DNA of 64,000 nucleotides from assembly GCF_040536835.1 (NCBI RefSeq), contig NZ_CP159578.1, positions 4,030,001 to 4,094,000 of the forward strand, read 5' to 3'. Numbering within the stretch: position 1 is the stretch's first letter; the number at the start of each line of letters is the position of its first letter. Both the position numbers and the translations under genes were made by a program. Shown here piece after piece: positions 40,517 to 51,275 of this stretch. The notes below the pieces were generated by a model, which saw only the letters and a list, made by a program, of their open reading frames with translations, did no database searches and was not told the DNA's origin. The stretch comes from Salinicola endophyticus. Lineage in GTDB: Bacteria > Pseudomonadota > Gammaproteobacteria > Pseudomonadales > Halomonadaceae.

Positions 40517-40954
40517 TCAGATTTGAGTGATCTCAAAACGTGTCGCCAAGATCTCGAGCAACATCTCCCGATCCTCGGCTGTCAGCATGTTCATGGCGAA
40601 CGCCATCTTGCGAGAAGACTTTTCTGATTTATCGTCGTGCCGCCGATAATGCACCAAGAGCACCTTCTTCTTACGTTCGACACGCTCCACTTCGCTGTCG
40701 AGAATCGTGCGCGCCCTCGCCAAAGGGGCCGGCTGGAATACAAGATAGTCGGCTCCGATACGAGCAACGGGAGAGAAATGAAACCAGCACCCCATGCCCA
40801 CCATAAGCCCGCCCATCCCGATGATCCCTACGGGTGCGGAGGGAACGCTCAGCAGCATAAACAAGCCAAGCGCCAGGGCAACACCACCGACACCCAGCAT
40901 CAGGCGCGCTTGTGTTTTGGCATAAAATTCCTGCCCTTGTGAAATCGTCGACAC
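40517..40954 (-). CDS. Small membrane protein with PH-like cytoplasmic tail, cargo island
   Basis: 145 aa from a GTG at 40954 with GAGGGAAG upstream; an earlier ATG (41038) would overlap the neighbouring gene. Two adjacent hydrophobic segments (LMLGVGGVALALGLFMLLSV and VGIIGMGGLMVGMGCWF) are followed by a charged domain (RTILDSEVERVERKKKVLLV, MLTAEDREMLLEILATRFEI) that looks like a membrane-anchored PH-type fold. Not recognised. Its place after the DUF6708 array suggests an accessory or further immunity role. Confidence 0.65.
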   Translation of the reverse strand: MSTISQGQEFYAKTQARLMLGVGGVALALGLFMLLSVPSAPVGIIGMGGLMVGMGCWFHFSPVARIGADYLVFQPAPLARARTILDSEVERVERKKKVLLVHYRRHDDKSEKSSRKMAFAMNMLTAEDREMLLEILATRFEITQI

Positions 40955-40982
40955 GTTACTTCCCTCGATATCCGAATGCGTT

Positions 40983-41303
40983 TCAGCGTGAGTTTTCTTC
41001 AGCCAGTGCGCGGCGCTTGTCGAGCGAGGCATCGTCACTCCGGCTGCTGGCGCGACGAGCCCCGTAGACGGTAATCAGCCCCAGCGGGACGAAGCAAATA
41101 GAGCCAATGATCACGAGGACGAACCCTGGCTTGTGCTTGCCGCTCCACAGCATCAGCGCACCCAACAGAGCCACTAGCCAAGAGGCCCCGGTCAGGTAGA
41201 TCAAGACATCCGGCACGGACTCACCGGGCTCCATATAGAGGCCATTGATCAAACCCAACCACCAAAGAAAGGTAATCCCCAACCCCAGAAAGACCGTTTT
41301 CAT
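40983..41303 (-). CDS. Small hypothetical integral membrane protein
   Basis: 106 aa from ATG 41303 (MKTVFLGLGITFLWWLGLIN). Three hydrophobic segments: residues 1-20, about 33-55 (VLIYLTGASWLVALLGALML) and 60-80 (FVLVIIGSICFVPLGLITVY), then a charged tail. Not recognised. It lies 28 bp before the PH-like membrane gene and probably forms a pair with it. Confidence 0.65.
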   Translation of the reverse strand: MKTVFLGLGITFLWWLGLINGLYMEPGESVPDVLIYLTGASWLVALLGALMLWSGKHKPGFVLVIIGSICFVPLGLITVYGARRASSRSDDASLDKRRALAEENSR

Positions 41304-41706
41304 AGCGCTCTCCATCAAATAAAAGACTGACACACCCTGGCGAGCGGCAAATATTATCAGCCCTGCACTGACCCGCAACCAAAAGTTTATTTAAGACACA
41401 AGGCGCGCAGAGAACAGCCTTTGCATCATCCGACTTGTAGAAGATGCTGCCAGTTTCGCACTCGAGAGCACTTACGACGGCTTCCACTGTCTCAGACTGA
41501 TCCCTTCGCAGCCCGACAAAAAACCAAAAAACCACATAAAAGAAACGCCTTGATGCTTTTCAGGAAGCAACTCAGCAATATTTGAAACGCAAAACCATGC
41601 CTATTTAAACAGTCTTTCCAAACCTCCCGACCCGAACACAGCCCTATAGCAAACACCACCATTCAAAAGCGTCCAATTTTTCGGGCCACACTAGAAAAAA
41701 CGATCT
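41304..41706. other. AT-richer intergenic region in the cargo island
   Basis: About 400 bp with no convincing gene. A minus-strand frame over 41221-41535 (opening VFWFFVGLRRDQSETVEAVV) is possible but overlaps the 106-aa membrane protein and has no clear family features, so I leave it uncalled. Base composition is distinctly lower in GC than outside the island. Confidence 0.5.
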
Positions 41707-42651
41707 TCAACGATTAGAAAGCACTATCTCCGGACCACACTCATCGATAATTTCTTGAGACCACTGGGGCACTTCGCAGTATTTGCAACAAAAGTAATGT
41801 CCCGCACCACCAACCACCTTGGGAATAAAGGTGACCACACTCATTAAAACAGACAACAGCTTAATGACTAGCGATTTTGACTTCACCTTAGGGTCAACAA
41901 CTTCCATTGCCTGCCTGAAACTAGGCTTGAGTGAAACATAGTCGTCTTCTTTGGGCTCATCCAAGCTACTAATATCCTGCAAGGTCATAAACTGACGAAC
42001 ATACTCGAATTGGTAGCTCAACCAACGCTCCGTCATGCTCCCAGCAACATGACCTAAATTAATCATTTCTTCGCCAATAGAAAAGCTATCCAGCACACCA
42101 TCGTACTCATTCAATACATAACCGCGCACCTCATAGTCGCGTCCCTCGGGCCCTCCTGCCCGTTTTGGCACGATACAATAGGTACAGCGACGCCAAGAAT
42201 AGGTGACAGGTTGGCCGTCATGAATGCTAAAAAAGTGAACATTTCCCGTGCGACGATTAAATGTAACAGGAGATATAGCATAGCCTTTAACTTCTTTCCA
42301 AGCCAGCCAAAAAAAGCCAAAAGCTAAAGGCAATCCCATCAGTGCAAAAACAGGCATCACCCACAAAGGCATGGGGGTGTAAAATGGAAAGCTAGCAAAA
42401 AAAAAGAAAAGGCACAAAACAACCACCCCTCCACCTCCACACCAGCCAAGATAAATCCCCCTCCGCTCAAACTCAGAGTCGGCGACTGCAAGCACTTTAT
42501 TACTATATAATAGCGTGAGGCGCGTAGGCCGAGCATCGTCAGCAGCCGGTTCATCCAAGGAAAAGCGACGCTCCTTGCCGTCAGCAGGGAGCTCGAATTG
42601 ATACTTAGGTATCATACCCAGGCTTTTCAAAACCTGAATTCGCCTTTTCAT
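41707..42651 (-). CDS. DUF6708-type membrane protein, copy 1 (putative T6SS immunity)
   Basis: 314 aa. Opens MKRRIQVLKSLGMIPKYQFE; two membrane segments at about 60-120 (GGGVVVLCLFFFFASFPFY and LWVMPVFALMGLPLAFGFFW), then a soluble domain (NVHFFSIHDGQPVTYSWRRC, GGPEGRDYEVRGYVLNEYDG, SFSIGEEMINLGHVAGSMTE) and a Cys-rich end (GAGHYFCCKYCEVPQWSQEI). DUF6708 proteins are found with T6SS cargo. Start at 42651 chosen because the third paralogue begins at this point and GGTGAGG lies just upstream. Almost identical to copy 2 except in the membrane hairpin. Confidence 0.75.
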   Translation of the reverse strand: MKRRIQVLKSLGMIPKYQFELPADGKERRFSLDEPAADDARPTRLTLLYSNKVLAVADSEFERRGIYLGWCGGGGVVVLCLFFFFASFPFYTPMPLWVMPVFALMGLPLAFGFFWLAWKEVKGYAISPVTFNRRTGNVHFFSIHDGQPVTYSWRRCTYCIVPKRAGGPEGRDYEVRGYVLNEYDGVLDSFSIGEEMINLGHVAGSMTERWLSYQFEYVRQFMTLQDISSLDEPKEDDYVSLKPSFRQAMEVVDPKVKSKSLVIKLLSVLMSVVTFIPKVVGGAGHYFCCKYCEVPQWSQEIIDECGPEIVLSNR

Positions 42652-42808
42652 ATGCCTCACCATAGCGTCGACTGACTTCTCGGGCATCCAAGCACGTGGG
42701 AAATGCCCACACTTGAATGTGGGGCATGCACCAGGGTTTTTAACAAGCAAGCGAGGCGAACCGGCATCCAATATTACTCATGCTAGCTCGCCCTACAAAA
42801 CGAGACCT
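42652..42808 (-). repeat. Duplicated 157-bp spacer, copy 1, with alternative hairpins
   Basis: Nearly identical (I count three differences) to 43754-43910. It contains GTGGG (42696), CCCAC (42706) and TGTGGG (42718), so CCCAC can pair with either neighbour, giving mutually exclusive stems. It lies upstream of copy 1 and downstream of copy 2 in the transcript. Confidence 0.75.
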
Positions 42809-43753
42809 CTAGCGATTAGAGAGAACTATCTCCGGACCACACTCATCGATAATCTCTTGAGACCACTGGGGCACTTTGCAGTACTTGCAACAAAAGTAAT
42901 GTCCCGCACCACCAACCACCTTGGGAATAAAGGTGACCACACTCATCAACACAGCCAACAGCTTAATGACTAGCGATTTTGACTTCACCTTAGGGTCAAC
43001 AACTTCCATTGCCTGCCTGAAACTAGGCTTGAGGGAAACATAGTCGTCTTCTTTGGGTGCATCCAAGCCACTAATATCCTGCAAGGTCATAAACTGACGA
43101 ACATACTCGAATTGGTAGCTCAACCAACGCTCCGTCATGCTCCCAGCAACATGACCTAAATTAATCATTTCTTCGCCAATAGAAAAGCTATCCATCACAC
43201 CATCGTACTCATTCAGTACATAACCGCGCACCTCATAGTCGCGTCCCTCGGGCCCGCCTGCCCGTTTTGGCACGATACAATAGGTACAGCGACGCCAAGA
43301 ATAGGTGACAGGTTGGCCATCATGAATACTAAAAAAGTGAACATTCCCCGTGCGACGATTAAACACAACAGGAGACATCGCATAGCCTGTAATCTCTTCC
43401 CAAGCCAGCCACCAGAATGCAGCAGCCAAAGGTAATGTCACAAGAGCAAAAGCAAACGTCAACCAATATGGCGCATGTGCATAAAAGGGAAGACCTCCCA
43501 AGGCAAAGAAAAACAACAAGATAACCAACCCACCGAAGCCGCACCAGCTCAGATAAATACCTCTTCGCTCAAACTCAGAATCGGCGACTGCAAGTACTTC
43601 ATTACTATATAATAGCGTGAGGCGCGTAGGCCGAGCATCGTCAGCAGCCGGTTCATCCAAGGAAAAGCGACGCTCCTTGCCGTCAGCAGGGAGCTCGAGT
43701 TGATACTTAGGTATCATCCCCAGGCTTTTCAAAACCTGAATTCGCCTTTTCAT
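42809..43753 (-). CDS. DUF6708-type membrane protein, copy 2 (putative T6SS immunity)
   Basis: 314 aa. Same architecture as copy 1. Residues 1-58 and about 125-314 are nearly identical to copy 1, but the membrane part differs strongly (GFGGLVILLFFFALGGLPFY and YWLTFAFALVTLPLAAAFWW). Stops of copies 1 and 2 are exactly 1102 bp apart. The pattern indicates recent duplication with focused change in the membrane hairpin, as expected if that part recognises different pore-forming toxins. Confidence 0.78.
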   Translation of the reverse strand: MKRRIQVLKSLGMIPKYQLELPADGKERRFSLDEPAADDARPTRLTLLYSNEVLAVADSEFERRGIYLSWCGFGGLVILLFFFALGGLPFYAHAPYWLTFAFALVTLPLAAAFWWLAWEEITGYAMSPVVFNRRTGNVHFFSIHDGQPVTYSWRRCTYCIVPKRAGGPEGRDYEVRGYVLNEYDGVMDSFSIGEEMINLGHVAGSMTERWLSYQFEYVRQFMTLQDISGLDAPKEDDYVSLKPSFRQAMEVVDPKVKSKSLVIKLLAVLMSVVTFIPKVVGGAGHYFCCKYCKVPQWSQEIIDECGPEIVLSNR

Positions 43754-43910
43754 ATGCCTCACCATAGCGTCGACTGACTACTCGGGCATCCAAGCACGTG
43801 GGAAATGCCCACACTTGAATGTGGGGCATGCACCAGGGTTTTTAACAAGCAAGCGAGGCGAACCGGCATCCTATATTACTCATGCTAGCTCGCCCTACAA
43901 AACGAGATCT
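43754..43910 (-). repeat. Duplicated 157-bp spacer, copy 2, with alternative hairpins
   Basis: Second copy of the spacer at 42652-42808, offset by exactly 1102 bp, with the same GTGGG / CCCAC / TGTGGG arrangement (43798-43825). It separates DUF6708 copies 3 and 2. Confidence 0.75.
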
Positions 43911-44858
43911 CTAGCGATTAGAGAGAACTATCTCCGGACCACACTCATCGATAATCTCTTGAGACCACTGCGGCACCTTGCAACACTTGCAACAAAAATA
44001 ATGTCCCGCACCACCAACCACCTTAGGCACGAATATTACAATATCAATAAAAGCAAAAAGAAACTTAACCACAAGAGACTTTGGCTCAGCTTTGGGTTGC
44101 ACCAAGTTCATGGACTGCTTGAAGCTGGGCTTGAGAGATACATAATCCCCCCTATTTGGCGGCTCTAGAAAACCAATATCTTCGCTTGTCATAAACATAC
44201 GAATATACTCGTAATGACAGGCAAACCAACGCTCCACGAACTCCTTCGATCTACGGGCAGGATTGATAGCCTCCTCACCGATAGAGAAACTATCTAAAAC
44301 ACCATCATAGTCATTAAGCACATATCCACGCAGCTCGTAATAGCTTCCTTCGGGCCCACCACTACGCTTTGGAACAACACAATAAACACATTTCTCCCAC
44401 GGATAACTTACTGGCTTGCCGTTAACAATGCTAAAAAAATAAACCTTCCCTGTGCTTCTATTAAAAACCACAGGATAGACTGCATAACCTTTTAACTCTT
44501 GCTTAGCAAGCCATAAAAATGCAGCCGCTGATGGCAGCGCCACTAATCCGACAAAGGGTATAATCCAATAAGGCGCAAGCGGAAACAAAAAAGGCATACT
44601 GCCAAAAAATAAAAACGCAGTAATAAAAATCATACAACCTATAAAAGACCAGCTTGTATATAGCCCGCGTCTCCGGAATTCGGAATCGGCAACTCCCAAC
44701 AGTTTTTGATTGTAAATTAGCGTCACTCTTGAAGGCCATGCTTCATCGGCGGCGCTCGAAGTTACGGAATGACGAATTTCATTGCCGGCGCTTGGAAGCT
44801 CGAACTGATACTTCGGAATCATTCCAAGAGCCGTCAACAGCCGATTTCGCTTTTTCAT
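43911..44858 (-). CDS. DUF6708-type membrane protein, copy 3 (putative cognate immunity)
   Basis: 315 aa, clearly diverged from copies 1 and 2 over most of its length (opens MKKRNRLLTALGMIPKYQFE; membrane segments SFIGCMIFITAFLFFGSMPF and WIIPFVGLVALPSAAAFLWL), yet its last ~38 residues (VVGGAGHYFCCKCCKVPQWS and on) are almost the same as theirs. Starts 3 nt after the VasX-like effector stop with AAGGG inside the effector's last codons, so it is translationally coupled and the best candidate for the effector's own immunity protein. Confidence 0.78.
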   Translation of the reverse strand: MKKRNRLLTALGMIPKYQFELPSAGNEIRHSVTSSAADEAWPSRVTLIYNQKLLGVADSEFRRRGLYTSWSFIGCMIFITAFLFFGSMPFLFPLAPYWIIPFVGLVALPSAAAFLWLAKQELKGYAVYPVVFNRSTGKVYFFSIVNGKPVSYPWEKCVYCVVPKRSGGPEGSYYELRGYVLNDYDGVLDSFSIGEEAINPARRSKEFVERWFACHYEYIRMFMTSEDIGFLEPPNRGDYVSLKPSFKQSMNLVQPKAEPKSLVVKFLFAFIDIVIFVPKVVGGAGHYFCCKCCKVPQWSQEIIDECGPEIVLSNR

Positions 44859-44861
44859 AAC

Positions 44862-47600
44862 TTACCCTTCAAATACGTTTTTGAGATCCTTTTGGGACTC
44901 TTTTATAGTCAAAAATCTCTCATCCACACCATAAAAACAGTGGCTTAGCCACTGTTGAGCCTTTGAATCCACCCATATCGATATCAAGACATTGATAGCA
45001 AGCATGATCACTATCACGAGAACACCGAGCAAAGAAAACATTCCAGCAAATATCACCGCAAAGCCCGCAAAAACATTACCTGCTGCTGAAAGCCCATACA
45101 ACGCAAAAAGGCATATATTTCCTTTTCTTAAGGAATCATAAGCATTTACAAAATCATAGGCAGCGAATACAAAAGCCGCCCCAGCACCTAAAAACTTACC
45201 CAAAACACCCAAGCTGCTAGAAAAACTCATCACTCTACCTGAAAATTGCCGCCCTGCTGCTACAAGCCCATTCACACCTGCTTCTACTGTCTCGCACAGG
45301 CCACCGACGACACCGGCCAGCGAGGTCCAGAACTTGACTGACAGCTCGCGTCGGCTGAATGAATTTGCATTATCCAGCGCCTTGCCCGCGTAGTACCAGG
45401 AGATGCCCGAGAAGAACAAGGAGACCGCATTCATTCTGACTTCGCCATTAATGGCTTGCTGGAAGCCCGGCATGATGCCTTCGCGAATGTTACGCGGGGT
45501 CAGAACGATAGGTTCACGAGAGCGCAAGATTCTCTCCGCTGTCGCGCGCCCGGCCCCCTGGCCGTCACTGATTGTCGCCAGGCGTGCGCGATCCACGAAG
45601 ACGAAGTGCTGAGAGCCGATCTGGTCGTACTGGCCTGTTCTTTTTAGCATCTCTCGTAGCGCACGCTGCATCTGAAGTCGGCTGGGCCGCTTGTTCGCCG
45701 GGATGGCCAGGCGCATTTCCTCGGCCAGAAGATTGACGAACTGCGTAGGCGTGCCCCTCAAGGGGCGCTCCACAATCCATTGATCGGTGGAGAACATCGA
45801 TGCCATCAGATAGAGGTTCTTCGCAGTGCCGTCGACACCCTGGGAGAGTAACTTGGCAACCGGCGCCCCGGAATGATAGATCAGCCTGGTGAAGGCGTTG
45901 CGCCCCGCGGTTTCGCTCGTTTCCGGGTTCAGCATCGCTTTGGCGCTTTTCTGCCATGCGGCGTTGAATTTGTCGAGAATCGTTACAGCGCTTTGTACGG
46001 TCAGGGGCGGCGCGCTATCGATCTCCGCCAGGTGGTCATCCTGGTTATGCCCGAGGCTCCGTAGCAACGGGTTTTCAGGGTCGGTGGGGTTACCCGCACT
46101 CGCCCATGTCCTCAGTATTTCGGCACACTCCTCCCGATCAGCGGCATCGTCGATGCAGTCGACGAAGTGGTTGACATAGTTCACCCCGGAATCGAGTTCG
46201 TCCGTCCGATAATCCGAGGAGAAGATCCTTTTCAGATCGGGAGAGTCCAGCCAGGTCGCGTGATCTTGAGAGAGCGGTATGTCTATCGACTCGGAATCGG
46301 CTTTGAGAGTTTCCTTGACACTTTGATAGTCGTCTTCGATTTGCTTGTCAGTCCGCGCCAGGAACTTCTGCCCTTCCCGGGTTTCCTTCCAGGCAGCCTG
46401 CCGGACCTCCTTGATACTCTCATCGGTCAGTCGCTCCGAGGTGGCCTCCTTGTGCGCTATCCTGGCTGCAATAATGTCGTTTTCTTCTTGTAATTCATCT
46501 CTGAATCGCAGCTGATGCTCACTCGGGCCTACCATTTCGATCCGCGCGTTGATTTGCTGCAGCTGTAGCTCATTGTATTCCAGCATTTCTGGATCACGCA
46601 GCAGCACGGATTGCCGTTGGCGCTTTTCGGCCTGGTTCCCCACCGACTCGCGTATAGTTTGTATCCCCGCCCAGGATGATAGCCGCCAACTGAAACGCTG
46701 CAGCGACGCTGACACCGCCTGAATCTGTTCGGCATTGAGCTCGACGGTGATACCCCGCGGGTCGTGCGTCGCGAAGATAATGGCGCGGCCCTGCGATTTA
46801 CGCTCGGCTGTCTCGACCAGGTCGTCGGCTTCGATGGCGCGCCAGTGGAACGGATAGACGGATTCAAACTCAGCGGTGTTTTGCGGATCATCCTCATCGG
46901 CCACGGTGCTATGAAAGCTCTGCCAAGCGTTGTGCCGATATTCGCTCACCCAGTCACTCACCGCCGACAGCGGCGCGGTGTGTGGCTGGCCAGCGGCGGG
47001 GGAGATACACAGAGACGGGTTGAGCGGCTGCATGCGGGTCGCGGGGTCACGGGCGATGCGATCGCGCACGGTTGCGTCCCAGTCGGTATCCGAAAATGCC
47101 AACCAGGCCTGGGTGACCTTTTCTGGCTGGCTGATGGTCACGCAGCGCGCCATCTGCCAGTCGCTGGAACGTCGGCACGCCTTATTTGCTTCCATATTGG
47201 GCGTCAGATGGCCGTCGAGCGGTATCGGCATGAAGTTGCTATCGCTGGTGACGCGATATTTGCGCCATATCACGCCATCGGCATCGCCACTGGGGAAGTG
47301 CATGTAGAAATAGCCAGCGCGCATGCTGCGTAGAATATAGGTCGCACGCTGCATGGCTTTATCCAGAACGCCCTCGCCGAAATTGCCGCCACTGGTGATG
47401 GGTGCGAGGCCGCTGATGCTATGGGCATGGCTCTCTGCGATCGCCGAATAACGCACCGGCAGAATCACCAGACCTGGGGACTTCTGGCACATCTGGCAGT
47501 CGCTGCAACCGCCGGTCTCGGCAGAGGTATCGGTGTTTCCACCGGACGTATTGGCGACCGCCGTCGCAACCGCTTCGTTGATGTCTGGAATCGCACTCAT
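44862..47600 (-). CDS. VasX-like T6SS pore-forming effector (BTH_I2691-type)
   Basis: 912 aa. The N-terminal region matches the VasX N-domain style: GCSDCQMCQKSPGLVILPVR (CxxCxxC, about residues 32-51), YILRSMRAGYFYMHFPSG. A long soluble middle (to about 730) is followed by several hydrophobic segments: AVSLFFSGISWYYAGKAL, SLAGVVGGLCETVEAGVNGL, FLGAGAAFVFAAYDFVNAYD, FALYGLSAAGNVFAGFAVIF and GVLVIVIMLAINVLISIWVD, i.e. a colicin-like membrane-inserting end. It would be delivered by VgrG and permeabilise target membranes. Starts 1 nt after the DUF4123 stop. Confidence 0.85.
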   Translation of the reverse strand: MSAIPDINEAVATAVANTSGGNTDTSAETGGCSDCQMCQKSPGLVILPVRYSAIAESHAHSISGLAPITSGGNFGEGVLDKAMQRATYILRSMRAGYFYMHFPSGDADGVIWRKYRVTSDSNFMPIPLDGHLTPNMEANKACRRSSDWQMARCVTISQPEKVTQAWLAFSDTDWDATVRDRIARDPATRMQPLNPSLCISPAAGQPHTAPLSAVSDWVSEYRHNAWQSFHSTVADEDDPQNTAEFESVYPFHWRAIEADDLVETAERKSQGRAIIFATHDPRGITVELNAEQIQAVSASLQRFSWRLSSWAGIQTIRESVGNQAEKRQRQSVLLRDPEMLEYNELQLQQINARIEMVGPSEHQLRFRDELQEENDIIAARIAHKEATSERLTDESIKEVRQAAWKETREGQKFLARTDKQIEDDYQSVKETLKADSESIDIPLSQDHATWLDSPDLKRIFSSDYRTDELDSGVNYVNHFVDCIDDAADREECAEILRTWASAGNPTDPENPLLRSLGHNQDDHLAEIDSAPPLTVQSAVTILDKFNAAWQKSAKAMLNPETSETAGRNAFTRLIYHSGAPVAKLLSQGVDGTAKNLYLMASMFSTDQWIVERPLRGTPTQFVNLLAEEMRLAIPANKRPSRLQMQRALREMLKRTGQYDQIGSQHFVFVDRARLATISDGQGAGRATAERILRSREPIVLTPRNIREGIMPGFQQAINGEVRMNAVSLFFSGISWYYAGKALDNANSFSRRELSVKFWTSLAGVVGGLCETVEAGVNGLVAAGRQFSGRVMSFSSSLGVLGKFLGAGAAFVFAAYDFVNAYDSLRKGNICLFALYGLSAAGNVFAGFAVIFAGMFSLLGVLVIVIMLAINVLISIWVDSKAQQWLSHCFYGVDERFLTIKESQKDLKNVFEG

Positions 47601-47601
47601 G

Positions 47602-48420
47602 CTACGTCGTTTCCCGGTTGGTCAGTTGTTCCTGAATGGTTTCCCAGCGGGCCTGAGGCCAATTGCCGGTCACGTGTCGATAGGCTGCACCACCACTCGC
47701 CAAGGCAATGGCGTTTGCGATATCGGGGTGCCGGATGATGTCGGGGTGGATCAACAACTCATGCAGCGCCAGCGCGACGCGATCTTGCAGATCACGCAGC
47801 CCTAGCGCTTGCCCATGGTCCAGACAGGCGGCAACCCGTTTACCGGCGTCGCGGTCGTCGCGTGGTGCCTGGGGGTCGTGAGCGCGCCACTGTTGCAGGC
47901 AGGCGCGCAGGGTGGGCAGCTCGTTCAAGCGGCGCGTCTGGGTGTCGTCGAGTGTCAGCCGCAGCCAGTGAGGCGCGCGCGGCTCATTGTCGATCTCGAC
48001 CCACTGCGACGACGCATCCAGAAACGCCCAACGTGAGATTCTGCCCAACAGGGAGTGCAGCTGATCCTGAGCAAGAATCCAGCGGAGATGCGTCATGACG
48101 CGCGGGTCGAAGTAGCGGCAATACATCCAGCGCGATGCGGGCGTAGCCGCAAGGCAGTACCGGCTCAACTGGTCTCTGAGCACGTCTGCTTCGACGTCGG
48201 CCCACAGCAGCGCGCAGACTGTCGGCGGCATGCCACGCCGCGAGACGTTTTGCGCCTGCGCTCTGAGCGTCTCCAACGAGGCCTTGTCGATACGATAAAG
48301 ATGCGGCGTCAGCCCATGCAGGTCCGGCCTGCGCCGTGGCAACAAGGCACCGATAGGCTCGCAGTCGTCACCGAGCGCCAGTGGCCCGTTCAAGTGATCG
48401 TGCAGCAACCAAGCCGTCAT
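47602..48420 (-). CDS. DUF4123 T6SS effector adaptor/chaperone (Tap/TEC)
   Basis: 272 aa from ATG 48420 (a GTG one codon earlier also fits), with GAGG 7 nt upstream. DUF4123 features: LYRIDKASLETLRAQAQNVS, TVCALLWADVEADVLRDQLS, RYFDPRVMTHLRWILAQDQL, HSLLGRISRWAFLDASSQWV. These adaptors load a specific effector onto the VgrG tip. Sits between vgrG and the VasX-like gene, the standard order for VgrG-adaptor-effector modules. Confidence 0.88.
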   Translation of the reverse strand: MTAWLLHDHLNGPLALGDDCEPIGALLPRRRPDLHGLTPHLYRIDKASLETLRAQAQNVSRRGMPPTVCALLWADVEADVLRDQLSRYCLAATPASRWMYCRYFDPRVMTHLRWILAQDQLHSLLGRISRWAFLDASSQWVEIDNEPRAPHWLRLTLDDTQTRRLNELPTLRACLQQWRAHDPQAPRDDRDAGKRVAACLDHGQALGLRDLQDRVALALHELLIHPDIIRHPDIANAIALASGGAAYRHVTGNWPQARWETIQEQLTNRETT

Positions 48421-48429
48421 CACAGCACC

Positions 48430-51054
48430 TCAGCCATCCACCAGCGATGAACCACGGTTCGCGGCACCCTGGTGCTTCGTCGCGCAGTCTGATCCCTCCG
48501 GCAACTCGGGCATGGCCGCGTCCAGGCTCGCGGGCCCACCGAAGACGTGCTGGGCCCCCTTGATATCGATCTTGCCGGGGCCATGAACATCGATATTGCC
48601 GCCTTCGATGCGGATATAGCCGCCACCACTGTTCAGCAGGATGCCGTTGGCGGCGTTGATCTCGACCCGCCCTTCGGTGGAGGTGATCTTGACGTCCTTC
48701 TCGGCGGTCAGCGCCATCTCGTCGCTCTGCGCCTGCACCTCGACCTTGCCGCGGGCGGCGAACAGCTTCATACCGGCGCGGTAGACGAACAGCGAGAGCT
48801 TCTCGGAGATCGAGGCGACCAGGCTCTTGCCGGTGGCCACGTTGACGTCCTCGCCGCTGGAGACGCTCAGCGAGCGGCCCTGGGCCAGGTGGGTCGATTC
48901 CGGCGTGCTCAGGGTGATGCCGGCGGGCGAGGCCATATGCAGCCAGGGCGCTTTCATGCGTGCCGCTTCGCCGCGGCCGCCACTGTCAGTGGCGCCACGG
49001 GCGTTGTCCTGCTTGGCATCCGCGAGCTGTTCGCTGTTGCCGTAGGTGTCGTCGGCGTCCTCGCCCGCCTGCTTGAGCTGCTCGCGGGCGTCGAGGGCGT
49101 CGGCGTTGTGATCCTGGGCACTCTGGCTGAGGCTGTCGCTGAGCTGGTAGGCGCTGTCGAGCTGCTGTTTGGCCGGCGTCAAATCGAGCTGGTCACCGCT
49201 GGCGCCGAGCTGGCCCCAGCTGGTGAGGTAGAGCCCCTGATTGGCGCGGATGGCGCCATAGGCATCGGTACGCAGCTCGAACCCGGTGCCGCGGAAGGCG
49301 CCACGGGTGTTGCCGGTCTGGTGGATCAGGTAGCCGAGGTTGAGCTGGCTCTTCTCCGCTTCGGAGTTGAGGCGCACCCGCTCCTGGTCGGTGGCATCGT
49401 CGAACACCAGCTCGTTGTACTTGCTGCCGCGGTAGGTCTTGCTCTTGAAGCCCGAGAGCAGGCCGTGGCTGTGCCAGTCCGGCGTCTGCTCGCCGTTGTA
49501 GACCCGGCCGGTGATCAGCGGGCGGTCGGCGTCGCCTTCGAGGAAGTCGACCAGCACTTCCTGGCCGATACGCGGCACGAACACCCCGCCCCAGCCGGCG
49601 CCGGCGTTGGGCTGGGAGACCCGCAGCCAGACGCTGCTGCTTTCATCGTTCTGCCCCTGGCGGTCCCAGTGGAACTGGACGCGCACGCGGTTGAGATGGT
49701 CGGTGTGGATCTCTTCATTGGCCGGGCCGACCACGGTGGCGGTCTGCGGCCCGCCGATCACCGGGCGGCGGTGGGTCAGCGGATGGCGGTAGGGTTGGCT
49801 GAGGCGCTGGGCTTCGAGGTCGACCAGAAAGTGGCCGGTGCCGCCACTCATGTAGTCGGAGAGACGGTCGCTATCGCCTTCGTCTTCCAGCCCGTGCGCC
49901 TTCTTGGCGGCGTCGAGCTGGGGCTGCAGGCTGCCCGGCAGCGCCTGGAGCTGGGCCGAGACCGGCAGCGCGTTCTCGGCGTGGACGGTGACGCCCAGCA
50001 GCAGGAACTGGCGCTCTGGCTCGCCGCCGCTGTCGTGCAGCGGGTGCTGGGTGAGTTCGAACCAGCGCCCGGCCTGGAGCTGACGCGCACCGCCGCTGCC
50101 GCGGAAGCGCTTGGCGCGGGACTCATGGGCTTCCAGGCGGTTCTCGGTCAGCCGTTCACCGCGCTCATGGCCGTGGTAGTAGTACTCGCCGGCGTAGTCG
50201 TAGAGTTCGGTTGGCGGCAGGTTGCCCTGGTCGCTGAGGGTGTCGAGCCCGGTGCGCTTGGTCAGCGAGGGCTGCTTGTAGTCGAAGGTGCCCACGCTGA
50301 CCCGGGTGGGCTGCTGGGTACGCACGCCGCCCCACTGGGTCAGGGCGTCCTCGCGCTCGGTGGCCGCCTGGCGGTGGAAGCGGATCGCCTGGGGGCTGAC
50401 CGGTTGGGTGGTATCGACATCGTCGGTGATCACCAGCCGATGCCCGTCGAAGCCCGACCCGGAGGCTTCAGAGGAGGCGTTATCCGCGTCCTGTTCCTGC
50501 CCCGAATATTCGAAGTAGTACCATAACCCTTCCTCCTCCAAGAGACGACTGACGAAGTTCAGATCGCTCTCGCGATACTGCACGCAGTAGCTTCTGGCCG
50601 GGTAGTCGCGGCGCAGGTCGAAGCGGTAGCGCCCCTGGGCCAGCTCGTAGTCGTCGAACACGGCGGTGAGCACATCGACGACGCTACGATCCTGGAAGAT
50701 GCGGCTGTCGCGGCCCAGGCCGAGCATGGCGAGCCACGGTACCAGGGTGAGCTGGTAGTAGGTGACACCGCCATCTTCGCCCAGCAGCGCGGCCTCGGAG
50801 ACCAGCCCGTGCAACGGGCGGTAGCTGCCGTCGGCCTGCAGGATCGAGAGCCGCGCCGGCTGCGCCATCAGCGTCTTGAGCTCGATATCGCCCTGCTGGG
50901 AGATGCAGTCGAGGGTGTAGGTAAAGGGGGCGCTGACGCGCTCTTCGCCCACCAGCCGATGGGGCACGAGGGCGGTGCCGGCGATATCGAGGGTCAGCAG
51001 CCGCTGCGACTGCGACAGATCGATATCGAAGGTGTCGAGGAGATCGTTGAGCAT
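48430..51054 (-). CDS. vgrG: Type VI secretion tip protein VgrG with DUF2345 extension
   Basis: 874 aa. gp27-like base domains (RLLTLDIAGTALVPHRLVGE, RDYPARSYCVQYRESDLNFV, SRLLEEEGLWYYFEYSGQEQ), gp5-like OB domain around residues 440-530 (RVRVQFHWDRQGQNDESSSV, PRIGQEVLVDFLEGDADRPL), then a long C-terminal beta-helix/DUF2345 region (SEKLSLFVYRAGMKLFAARG, SGGGYIRIEGGNIDVHGPGK). It is the puncturing tip of the T6SS. No structural tss genes are in the window, so this is an orphan cargo module. Start 51054 (MLNDLLDTFDIDL). Confidence 0.95.
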   Translation of the reverse strand: MLNDLLDTFDIDLSQSQRLLTLDIAGTALVPHRLVGEERVSAPFTYTLDCISQQGDIELKTLMAQPARLSILQADGSYRPLHGLVSEAALLGEDGGVTYYQLTLVPWLAMLGLGRDSRIFQDRSVVDVLTAVFDDYELAQGRYRFDLRRDYPARSYCVQYRESDLNFVSRLLEEEGLWYYFEYSGQEQDADNASSEASGSGFDGHRLVITDDVDTTQPVSPQAIRFHRQAATEREDALTQWGGVRTQQPTRVSVGTFDYKQPSLTKRTGLDTLSDQGNLPPTELYDYAGEYYYHGHERGERLTENRLEAHESRAKRFRGSGGARQLQAGRWFELTQHPLHDSGGEPERQFLLLGVTVHAENALPVSAQLQALPGSLQPQLDAAKKAHGLEDEGDSDRLSDYMSGGTGHFLVDLEAQRLSQPYRHPLTHRRPVIGGPQTATVVGPANEEIHTDHLNRVRVQFHWDRQGQNDESSSVWLRVSQPNAGAGWGGVFVPRIGQEVLVDFLEGDADRPLITGRVYNGEQTPDWHSHGLLSGFKSKTYRGSKYNELVFDDATDQERVRLNSEAEKSQLNLGYLIHQTGNTRGAFRGTGFELRTDAYGAIRANQGLYLTSWGQLGASGDQLDLTPAKQQLDSAYQLSDSLSQSAQDHNADALDAREQLKQAGEDADDTYGNSEQLADAKQDNARGATDSGGRGEAARMKAPWLHMASPAGITLSTPESTHLAQGRSLSVSSGEDVNVATGKSLVASISEKLSLFVYRAGMKLFAARGKVEVQAQSDEMALTAEKDVKITSTEGRVEINAANGILLNSGGGYIRIEGGNIDVHGPGKIDIKGAQHVFGGPASLDAAMPELPEGSDCATKHQGAANRGSSLVDG

Positions 51055-51275
51055 GCGGTTTTCCTGATCGCGGTGGCGGCGCCGGTCGACGAGGGTCAGA
51101 GACAATGTTCAGAGGATCAGGATAACGCATCACTGGCGAAATGTTTGTAGGAGATATGCTACGGCTGGCGTGAGATATCGGCCGAAAAATCGGCGGAATA
51201 ACCCACTCTTCGGACAAAAGAAGGAGTATGGAAGAATAACGATAACGCCATTCTCATCGGGAGCGCGTACTGCCC

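Follow-up and report, generated by a model that had tools for sequence, protein, structure and literature searches.

We analysed a 64,000-nucleotide stretch of Salinicola endophyticus contig NZ_CP159578.1 (positions 4,030,001 to 4,094,000), hereafter the window, which carries a type VI secretion system (T6SS) effector gene followed by three tandem genes of the DUF6708 family. On the minus strand, the order is vgrG, a DUF4123 adaptor gene, the effector gene, and DUF6708 copies 3, 2, and 1. The 912-residue effector (44862..47600) belongs to the VasX/BTH_I2691 family, matching NF041559 with 343 bits over residues 34-908 (cut-off 150) and VasX_N (PF20249) with 79 bits. Copy 3 (43911..44858), which lies 3 bp behind the effector gene, is its predicted cognate immunity gene. 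Copy 2 (42809..43765) and copy 1 (41707..42663; the open reading frame [ORF] caller prolongs its frame to a TTG at 42771) are predicted orphan immunity genes. These assignments come from ORFs, Pfam, and alignment. All three copies exceed the DUF6708 (PF20455) cut-off of 27 bits, at 35.2, 36.2, and 46.8 bits, and their stops at 41707, 42809, and 43911 define two periods of exactly 1102 bp. ORF coordinates and Pfam thus agree with an earlier note on this DNA, which had described three tandem DUF6708 genes with an exact 1102-bp stop period and a VasX-like effector upstream.

The regular spacing arises in part because two 145-bp intergenic stretches, between copies 3 and 2 (43766..43910) and between copies 2 and 1 (42664..42808), are nearly identical (142/145 positions). 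A genome search detected this spacer only twice, both times within the array. With two genome occurrences and an RNA fold that is not unusual (z -1.16), we ruled out that it is a mobile or structured element. The numbers of predicted promoters and terminators were close to those in shuffled sequence (3 versus 4.8, standard deviation 2.5, and 7 versus 5.5, standard deviation 2.3).

Each copy contains a predicted membrane hairpin, at residues 68-129 of copy 3 (44472..44657, from alignment and hydropathy), residues 71-132 of copy 2 (43370..43555, with helices at 65-90 and 101-126 in a structure model), and residues 71-132 of copy 1 (42268..42453, from alignment and the mosaic walk described below). 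The hairpin of copy 2 is of the Chromohalobacter nigrandesensis type, and that of copy 1 is of the MFB021 type. Copies 1 and 2 share 97% of their amino acids over residues 1-70, 133-282, and 283-318, and 55% over residues 71-132. They differ at 89 nucleotides across 954 sites, with 61 of the differences in one 186-nucleotide interval, a clustering that none of 10,000 shuffles matched. Divergence at synonymous sites (dS) was 0.91 in the hairpin versus 0.135, 0.110, and 0.261 in the other three regions, and the ratio of nonsynonymous to synonymous divergence (dN/dS) was 0.35 in the hairpin and 0.05-0.16 in the remaining regions. Outside the hairpin, the differences are mostly silent (20.8 at 167.7 silent sites versus 9.2 at 600 replacement sites). 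All copies have open frames and, judging from the substitution pattern, copies 1 and 2 are both constrained outside the hairpin. Since hairpin dS is high and flank dS is low, the hairpin lineages are older than the flanks around them. Positive selection acting in place on the hairpin is not favoured, as its silent sites are strongly diverged too.

Copy 3 differs from copies 1 and 2 in another way. Its amino acid identity to them is 58-61% over residues 1-70, 44-45% in the hairpin, and 59% over residues 133-282, and rises to 94-97% over the last 36 residues. At the DNA level, the last 36 codons and stop of copy 3 (43911..44021) are common to all copies; the 36 codons (43914-44021, 42812-42919, and 41710-41817) are 90-95% identical among the three genes, with 95% between copies 3 and 2 and 90% between copies 3 and 1, against 64% in the body of copy 3. 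This conserved end is a possible recombination handle, and copy 2 looks like the scaffold of copy 1 joined to the 3′ end of copy 3, as would result from unequal crossing-over between shared 3′ ends. The earlier note had held that the copies differ mainly in the membrane hairpin, through focused change within one module. The first part holds for copies 1 and 2, where the positional comparison of silent and replacement changes placed divergence in the hairpin and not evenly along the genes, but not for copy 3, which is divergent throughout except in its last 36 residues. Change in place gives way to replacement of the module between old hairpin lineages, with hairpin dS high or saturated and flank dS low.

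Two close relatives of the locus, in MFB021 (L021) and C. nigrandesensis (L022), came from one scan of genome contigs. Salinicola and Chromohalobacter are both Halomonadaceae, and the effector of the window shares 90% identity with that of MFB021 and 79% with that of C. nigrandesensis. The hairpin of copy 1 is 98% identical in both amino acids and DNA to that of the effector-adjacent copy in MFB021 (three silent changes and one amino acid change), with N-terminal parts just 83%/84% identical. The hairpin of copy 2 is 82% identical to that of the effector-adjacent copy in C. nigrandesensis. Reciprocally, the second copy in MFB021 has a hairpin nearest that of window copy 3 (68%) and a body of the copy 1/2 type (93-94%). 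Three-sequence walks placed foreign blocks at residues 67-134 of copy 1 (61/63 informative sites MFB021-like), 56-129 of copy 2 (47/55 informative sites C. nigrandesensis-like), and 48-131 of the second MFB021 copy (58/85 sites), each at the permutation floor of 5e-5. These comparisons identify copies 1 and 2 as mosaics that did not arise by point change in place. Likeness to foreign cognate immunity proteins, as seen in orphan arrays, is found for the hairpin block and not specifically for the whole gene. In its own genome, the window array accounts for one close effector and three matches to copy 2, and a genome search found no partner effector for copies 1 and 2, the sole further BTH_I2691 candidates being one distant effector and a tail fragment.

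The same pattern recurs in other arrays. We compared 15 non-adjacent immunity copies with 28 effector-adjacent copies; one, G003_2, lacks an intact adjacent copy of its own, leaving 14. A second set comprised four non-adjacent copies from later arrays and 36 adjacent copies. The hairpin was closest to a foreign adjacent copy in 16 of the 18 non-adjacent copies (12/14 in the first set, 4/4 in the second), with identities of 60-100% in 12 of the 16. G010_2 is a clear mosaic: its hairpin is 89% identical to that of a G035 copy and 35% to that of its own neighbour, and its body is 89% identical to that of the neighbour. The hairpin was also the least conserved of the three parts (N-terminal part, hairpin, and body) in 27 of 31 sibling pairs from 16 arrays, including a pair in G352, from another family of the same order. 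The exceptions were M 1-3, M 2-3, G066A (different immunity types), and G003 (N-terminal part missing, hairpin 20%, body 77%). The 16 arrays were picked by hand; G069C, G066C, G035b, and G066A have effector pieces between their immunity genes. Left out of the count were broken, cut, or weak copies in L036, L030, L047, L057, L060, L062, and L063, and copies of other types or with effector pieces (L044, the third copy of L025, L030, and further L039 copies). Judged by comparison, the proposal in the earlier note that extra copies are orphan immunity genes against rivals is borne out, as non-adjacent hairpins match foreign effector-adjacent hairpins.

We determined whether the hairpin co-varies with part of the effector. 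Among 275 genomes of the family Halomonadaceae, 21 contained a related effector and 24 a related immunity gene. Immunity identity was lowest at residues ~71-110 in all four sets profiled, and effector identity had its minimum at ~811 in set A1, with less clear-cut minima in the other sets (last 25 windows only). Mantel tests were performed on groups A and B, each consisting of nine pairs whose genes adjoin in the DNA. Group C (four pairs), too small for this test, was used in profiles, dS, and block comparisons only, and the protein-only pairs P0003/P0013, P0007/P0016, and P0008/P0015, whose adjacency is inferred, were kept out of the groups. Given the effector core, the hairpin correlated with the effector tail in both group A (n = 9, rho 0.62, p 0.0006) and group B (n = 9, rho 0.66, p 0.0016). 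In group B, the hairpin did not correlate with the core (rho -0.03).

Scanning group B by windows narrowed the signal on both sides (family-wise p 0.006). Positions are in G007 numbering, in which the effector lies within about ten residues of that of the window and immunity numbers are ~13 lower. For the effector, rho was -0.19 to 0.13 for window starts 621-781, 0.58-0.85 for 801-831, and 0 to 0.13 from 851; for the immunity protein, it was 0.53-0.85 for starts 31-121 and -0.22 to 0.19 from 131. The window scan and block comparison define effector residues 801-850 (45051..45200) as the segment that co-varies with the immunity hairpin. The ten close effector pairs in group B separate fully: four with segments 74-100% identical have hairpins 75-97% identical, and six with segments 52-60% identical have hairpins 21-31% identical. 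G153 and G089 have effector cores that are 99% identical and adjacent hairpins that are 21-22% identical, and in each, a non-adjacent copy carries the hairpin type found next to the effector in the other (99% and 100%). In an outside check, P0015/P0008 and the window pair share 76% of the effector segment and 71% of the hairpin, against 59% of the N-terminal part, 61% of the body, and 65% of the effectors overall. This presumed pair fits co-variation; P0007/P0016 had no close partner for comparison.

Effector divergence is also confined. Between the window and MFB021 effectors, dS is 0.08-0.15 up to residue 770; over the rest of the gene it rises to 1.1, then 2.0, and finally exceeds what can be estimated. 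From nucleotide 1981 on, the effector genes of MFB021 and C. nigrandesensis share 81-92% of their DNA, except for a 90-nucleotide window (residues 811-840) with 54%. A structure model of the effector places helices at 797-825 and 829-851 around a KGN turn, with a predicted local distance difference test score (pLDDT) of about 55-60 there. However, this model is poor (mean pLDDT 39), and we set its fold aside as evidence; it shows only helices after residue 702, the known comparison being the C-terminal immunoglobulin-like beta domain of Tke5 and Ptx2. By profile, the effector matches one solved chain, 9r8g_A (996 amino acids), at E 2e-4 over residues 42-223; we take this chain to be Tke5 from its length. 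The copy 2 model is fair (pLDDT 81). A Foldseek search with it gave no significant match, a closer inspection yielded at most a hint of a PH-like fold, and no solved structure matched the immunity profile by sequence at E 0.1.

A model that accommodates most of these data is that copy 3 provides self-immunity, that copies 1 and 2 are orphan immunity genes against rivals, and that specificity lies in recognition between two hairpins in the membrane. We assign this reading a probability of roughly 0.7. The locus would be a T6SS effector-immunity cassette plus a small immunity archive. We infer that the DUF6708 protein is an inner-membrane protein with a two-helix membrane hairpin inserted in a beta-rich domain, and that this hairpin would recognise the short helical effector segment (~residues 801-850) within the membrane, blocking the pore. 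Copy 3, directly behind the effector gene, would neutralise the cell's own effector, and it alone is predicted to protect against the 44862-47600 product. On a common scaffold, copies 1 and 2 would present hairpins suited to effector segments from other species and thereby protect against those rivals. New specificities may enter as modules, with recombination in conserved flanks (N-terminal part, body, 3′ end, and intergenic repeat) swapping the hairpin, and copy number may rise by unequal crossing-over between shared 3′ ends. The expectation in the earlier note that the hairpin sets toxin specificity has thus gained comparative support, since hairpin divergence tracks that of a short effector segment and, in the group with the best resolution, does not track that of the effector core.

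A more general form of this proposal has, in our estimate, even odds. The ~60-residue DUF6708 hairpin, read against a helical hairpin of ~40-50 residues in VasX-family toxins, might alone set which toxin is neutralised and so act as a portable specificity code. Bacteria would widen their immunity by exchanging hairpins across species within otherwise constant tandem genes, and toxins would swap hairpins to match.

Several results weigh against hairpin-based specificity or limit its reach. In group A, the hairpin correlated with the effector core as well (rho 0.76), and the scan peak at 831 (p 0.012) was broad, with effector starts 801-871 giving 0.53-0.71 and several immunity body windows also correlating (0.5-0.64). 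Given the core, the wider effector tail of group A correlated with the N-terminal part and body (0.41 and 0.40, p 0.02 and 0.03). The wider tail of group B correlated with the N-terminal part given the core (0.42, p 0.003) and with the immunity body, at rho 0.46 (p 0.010) uncorrected, 0.32 (p 0.056) after correction for the core, and 0.47 (p 0.005) after correction for the hairpin. The part-wise Mantel test favours the hairpin and does not isolate it, and the species are few and not independent beyond the correction for core distance. The MFB021 and C. nigrandesensis effector segments are still 72% identical. Among non-adjacent copies, G089_3 and G167a_2 did not fit, and four of the 16 that did fit matched weakly (38-54%). 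Of the six three-sequence walks, the one that treated copy 3 as recombinant fell short of significance (p 0.12), and the hairpin of copy 3 shares just 68% with the matching MFB021 copy. In the presumed Salinicola sp. DM10 pair P0013/P0003, the effector segment is 94% G069-like and the hairpin 54%; P0003, whose flanks resemble those of copies 1 and 2 (95-96%), may come from a position not adjacent to the effector.

The alternative that fares best is that the N-terminal part and the hairpin hold specificity jointly, with the hairpin as half of the interface. Group B immunity windows correlate with the effector segment from start 31 on, the N-terminal part still correlates once the hairpin is given (group B 0.30, p 0.05; group A 0.36, p 0.04), and it varies with the hairpin in the G153, G089, and G007 arrays. 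Since the part before the hairpin varies along with it in several other arrays, the co-varying immunity block probably spans about residues 45-130. Nonetheless, the hairpin changes while the N-terminal part stays nearly constant in copies 1 and 2 (97%), the G069C pair (97%), and G069f/G066t, and we consider a joint interface somewhat unlikely.

A second alternative is linkage, in which effector tail and immunity hairpin move in one recombination tract and co-vary without contact. The two segments are just a few hundred bp apart, and the window and MFB021 are divergent from about effector residue 770 through copy 3. In four of six contrasts (G153/G089, G005/G007, G069t/G066f, and window/MFB021), the stretch between the two islands of divergence is partly or wholly divergent, which also counts against the favoured reading. 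The other two contrasts differ. Between G069f and G066t, the effector island has 74% DNA identity and the immunity hairpin 39-51% (at 81-125), and the DNA that separates them is well conserved: 91-95% at the effector end and 97% over immunity codons 1-40 (100% in amino acids), then 83% over codons 41-60. Between MFB021 and C. nigrandesensis, the islands have 61-70% and 58-75%, and the stretches between them 82-86% and 83%. A single contiguous tract is unlikely in these two contrasts and would be possible in the other four. Linkage is therefore not the whole explanation of the pairing, as two of the six contrasts have islands parted by well-conserved DNA. Further, the end of the effector (windows from 851) has a partial rho of 0 to 0.13 with the hairpin in group B, and copies 1-2 kb further on match foreign hairpins. 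We regard linkage as improbable.

It is less probable still that copies 1 and 2 are functionless by-products of duplication or serve as extra dosage against the cell's own effector. They share flanks and intergenic DNA, as in fresh duplications, but their hairpins are not duplicates of that of copy 3, their frames are open with low dN/dS outside the hairpin, and no effector with their partner segment was found in the genome, where the further BTH_I2691 effector and tail fragment lack a DUF6708 neighbour. The least credible alternative is that the hairpin is a weakly constrained membrane anchor that drifts fast, with the match to effector type a by-product: hydrophobic segments tolerate exchanges and the hairpin is the least conserved part in most sibling pairs, but low identity is not universal among hairpins (in 85 pairs whose bodies share at least 80%, hairpin identity is <50% in 49, 50-70% in 16, at least 70% in 20, and above body identity in nine), only one amino acid separates the copy 1 hairpin from its MFB021 counterpart, and dN/dS is 0.35 between the copy 1 and copy 2 hairpins.

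Immunity arrays with displaced effectors, mosaic tandem immunity genes, and modular specificity in T6SS immunity are already known. In Vibrio cholerae T6SS clusters, orphan immunity genes form arrays with displaced effectors (Kirchberger et al., 2017, PMC5361080). As in the available part of that account, immunity genes here stand in a row behind the effector, the extras resemble the cognate immunity of other strains, the cluster recombines, and displaced effector tails occur, in our case in the related loci L022, L025, and L035. There, however, whole immunity genes have shifted downstream and array members do not cluster together, which its authors take as evidence against duplication; in window copies 1 and 2, the flanks are duplicated and a block of ~60 residues is foreign. 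A tblastn search with four effectors matched only the intact effector and revealed no displaced-effector remnants among the window immunity genes, so we do not assign the array to the effector-displacement route (PMC5361080).

The tandem mosaic immunity genes esaG and tipC of type VII secretion (Garrett et al., 2022, PMC9484751) are closer in mechanism. According to the sections of that paper available, conserved blocks and intergenic DNA flank variable regions, and recombination between tandem paralogues yields mosaics. Flanking homology blocks, conserved intergenic DNA, and recombinant copies are all present here, a likeness of mechanism only. EsaG neutralises a nuclease, and the membrane immunity protein TsaI, directed against the depolarising toxin TspA, is described there without clear recombination (PMC9484751). 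The window protein, unlike EsaG, is predicted to lie in the membrane, and its variable block, which matches a toxin segment, is flanked on either side by homology blocks. PefE of Proteus mirabilis (Alteri et al., 2017, PMC5714391) likewise is a T6SS immunity protein with conserved and variable modules and specificity in one short region; the text available predicts a beta-propeller, unlike the membrane hairpin here.

Within the effector family, the nearest described system is Tke5-Tki5 of Pseudomonas putida, which shares the BTH_I2691 family, DUF4123 adaptor, and VgrG (PMC12909789). Tki5 neutralises the alpha-helical pore-forming region of Tke5; in the accessible portion of that report, Tke5 has a C-terminal beta-rich domain, one immunity gene is described, and the part recognised by Tki5, as for VasX-family effectors generally, is mapped no finer than a large helical region (PMC12909789). 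A 2025 study, in its available text, states that high variability and the lack of recognisable modularity blocked the sorting of candidate receptor-binding domains in the family (PMC12718326). For DUF6708, the literature searched contained only Tsi3a of Stenotrophomonas rhizophila, listed as a T6SS immunity protein in a single table entry, with no array, hairpin, or specificity analysis in the part of the source available (PMC13340143).

Recognition between hairpins would have a parallel in colicins, whose helical hairpins are the part recognised by immunity proteins. For pore-forming colicins, a protein of the cytoplasmic membrane stops a helical pore former (PMC9558359, as far as its available text goes). 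The analogy is one of action only, as colicin delivery differs from that of the T6SS effector (PMC9558359).

Searches that combined gene conversion with chimeric immunity gave no match in the literature searched. The pattern that we did not find there, and regard as new, is that the unit of exchange is a membrane hairpin inside a tandem membrane-protein gene, matched to a short toxin segment across species. Read as modular, this locus and its relatives would narrow immunity recognition to two short segments. Copies 1 and 2 form a natural swap pair with a predicted partner named for each, the effectors of MFB021 and C. nigrandesensis, respectively. The locus also suggests that a repertoire of membrane immunity proteins can expand by units smaller than a whole gene, whereas the staphylococcal counterpart, TsaI, showed no clear recombination in the sections available (PMC9484751).

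Relatives of the locus contain further rearrangements. In C. nigrandesensis, a second effector ORF lacking the first ~145 residues (L022 5126-7474) is nearly identical to the upstream effector over ~150 residues, then continues as another effector type with its own DUF6708 gene. In two other genomes of this genus, displaced effector tails of ~320 amino acids (L025 5742-6707 and L035 8535-9488) each have their own immunity gene, and the effector segment and hairpin differ together with much of the rest shared. In G013, stop codons have split the DUF6708 array that lies behind an open effector frame (L036 5630-8850). MFB021 has a third DUF6708 gene of another type (L021 6307-7365), whose closest adjacent copy stands beside another VasX-family effector in G003 (hairpin 75%, N-terminal part 81%, body 85%); G002 also holds a copy of this type. 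A DUF6708 protein that shares 75% identity with copy 2, P0004, is assigned to the Gram-positive Virgibacillus halodenitrificans, probably through contamination or mislabelling.

The second, distant BTH_I2691 effector of the S. endophyticus genome (1159 amino acids) lies ~20 kb from the VipB gene, in a locus at L064 6041-9520 and 9520-12249 (genome 1598040-1604248). We considered it as a partner of copy 1 or 2 and rejected it: its neighbours are others, and no DUF6708 gene lies in the 17-kb stretch inspected. It is followed first by an immunity-like gene, in which Sel1-type repeats are visible by eye, then by an effector tail fragment that has a changed C-terminus, and finally by another immunity-like gene similar to the first. 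The locus may be organised on the same principle as the window cassette, around an unrelated immunity protein.

The genes upstream of the effector are consistent with T6SS delivery. Also on the minus strand, they encode the 891-residue VgrG spike protein (48430..51105; TIGR03361, 472 bits, cut-off 186; Phage_GPD, T6SS_Vgr, and DUF2345) and the 273-residue Tap-like DUF4123 adaptor (47602..48423; PF13503, 36.1 bits, cut-off 25.8); a VipB sheath gene is encoded elsewhere in the genome. Behind the array, at 40517-41378, two small minus-strand ORFs encode proteins of 131 and 173 amino acids with hydrophobic stretches and no Pfam match at E 0.01. Counterparts of both also lie behind the MFB021 array (L021 7570-8437).

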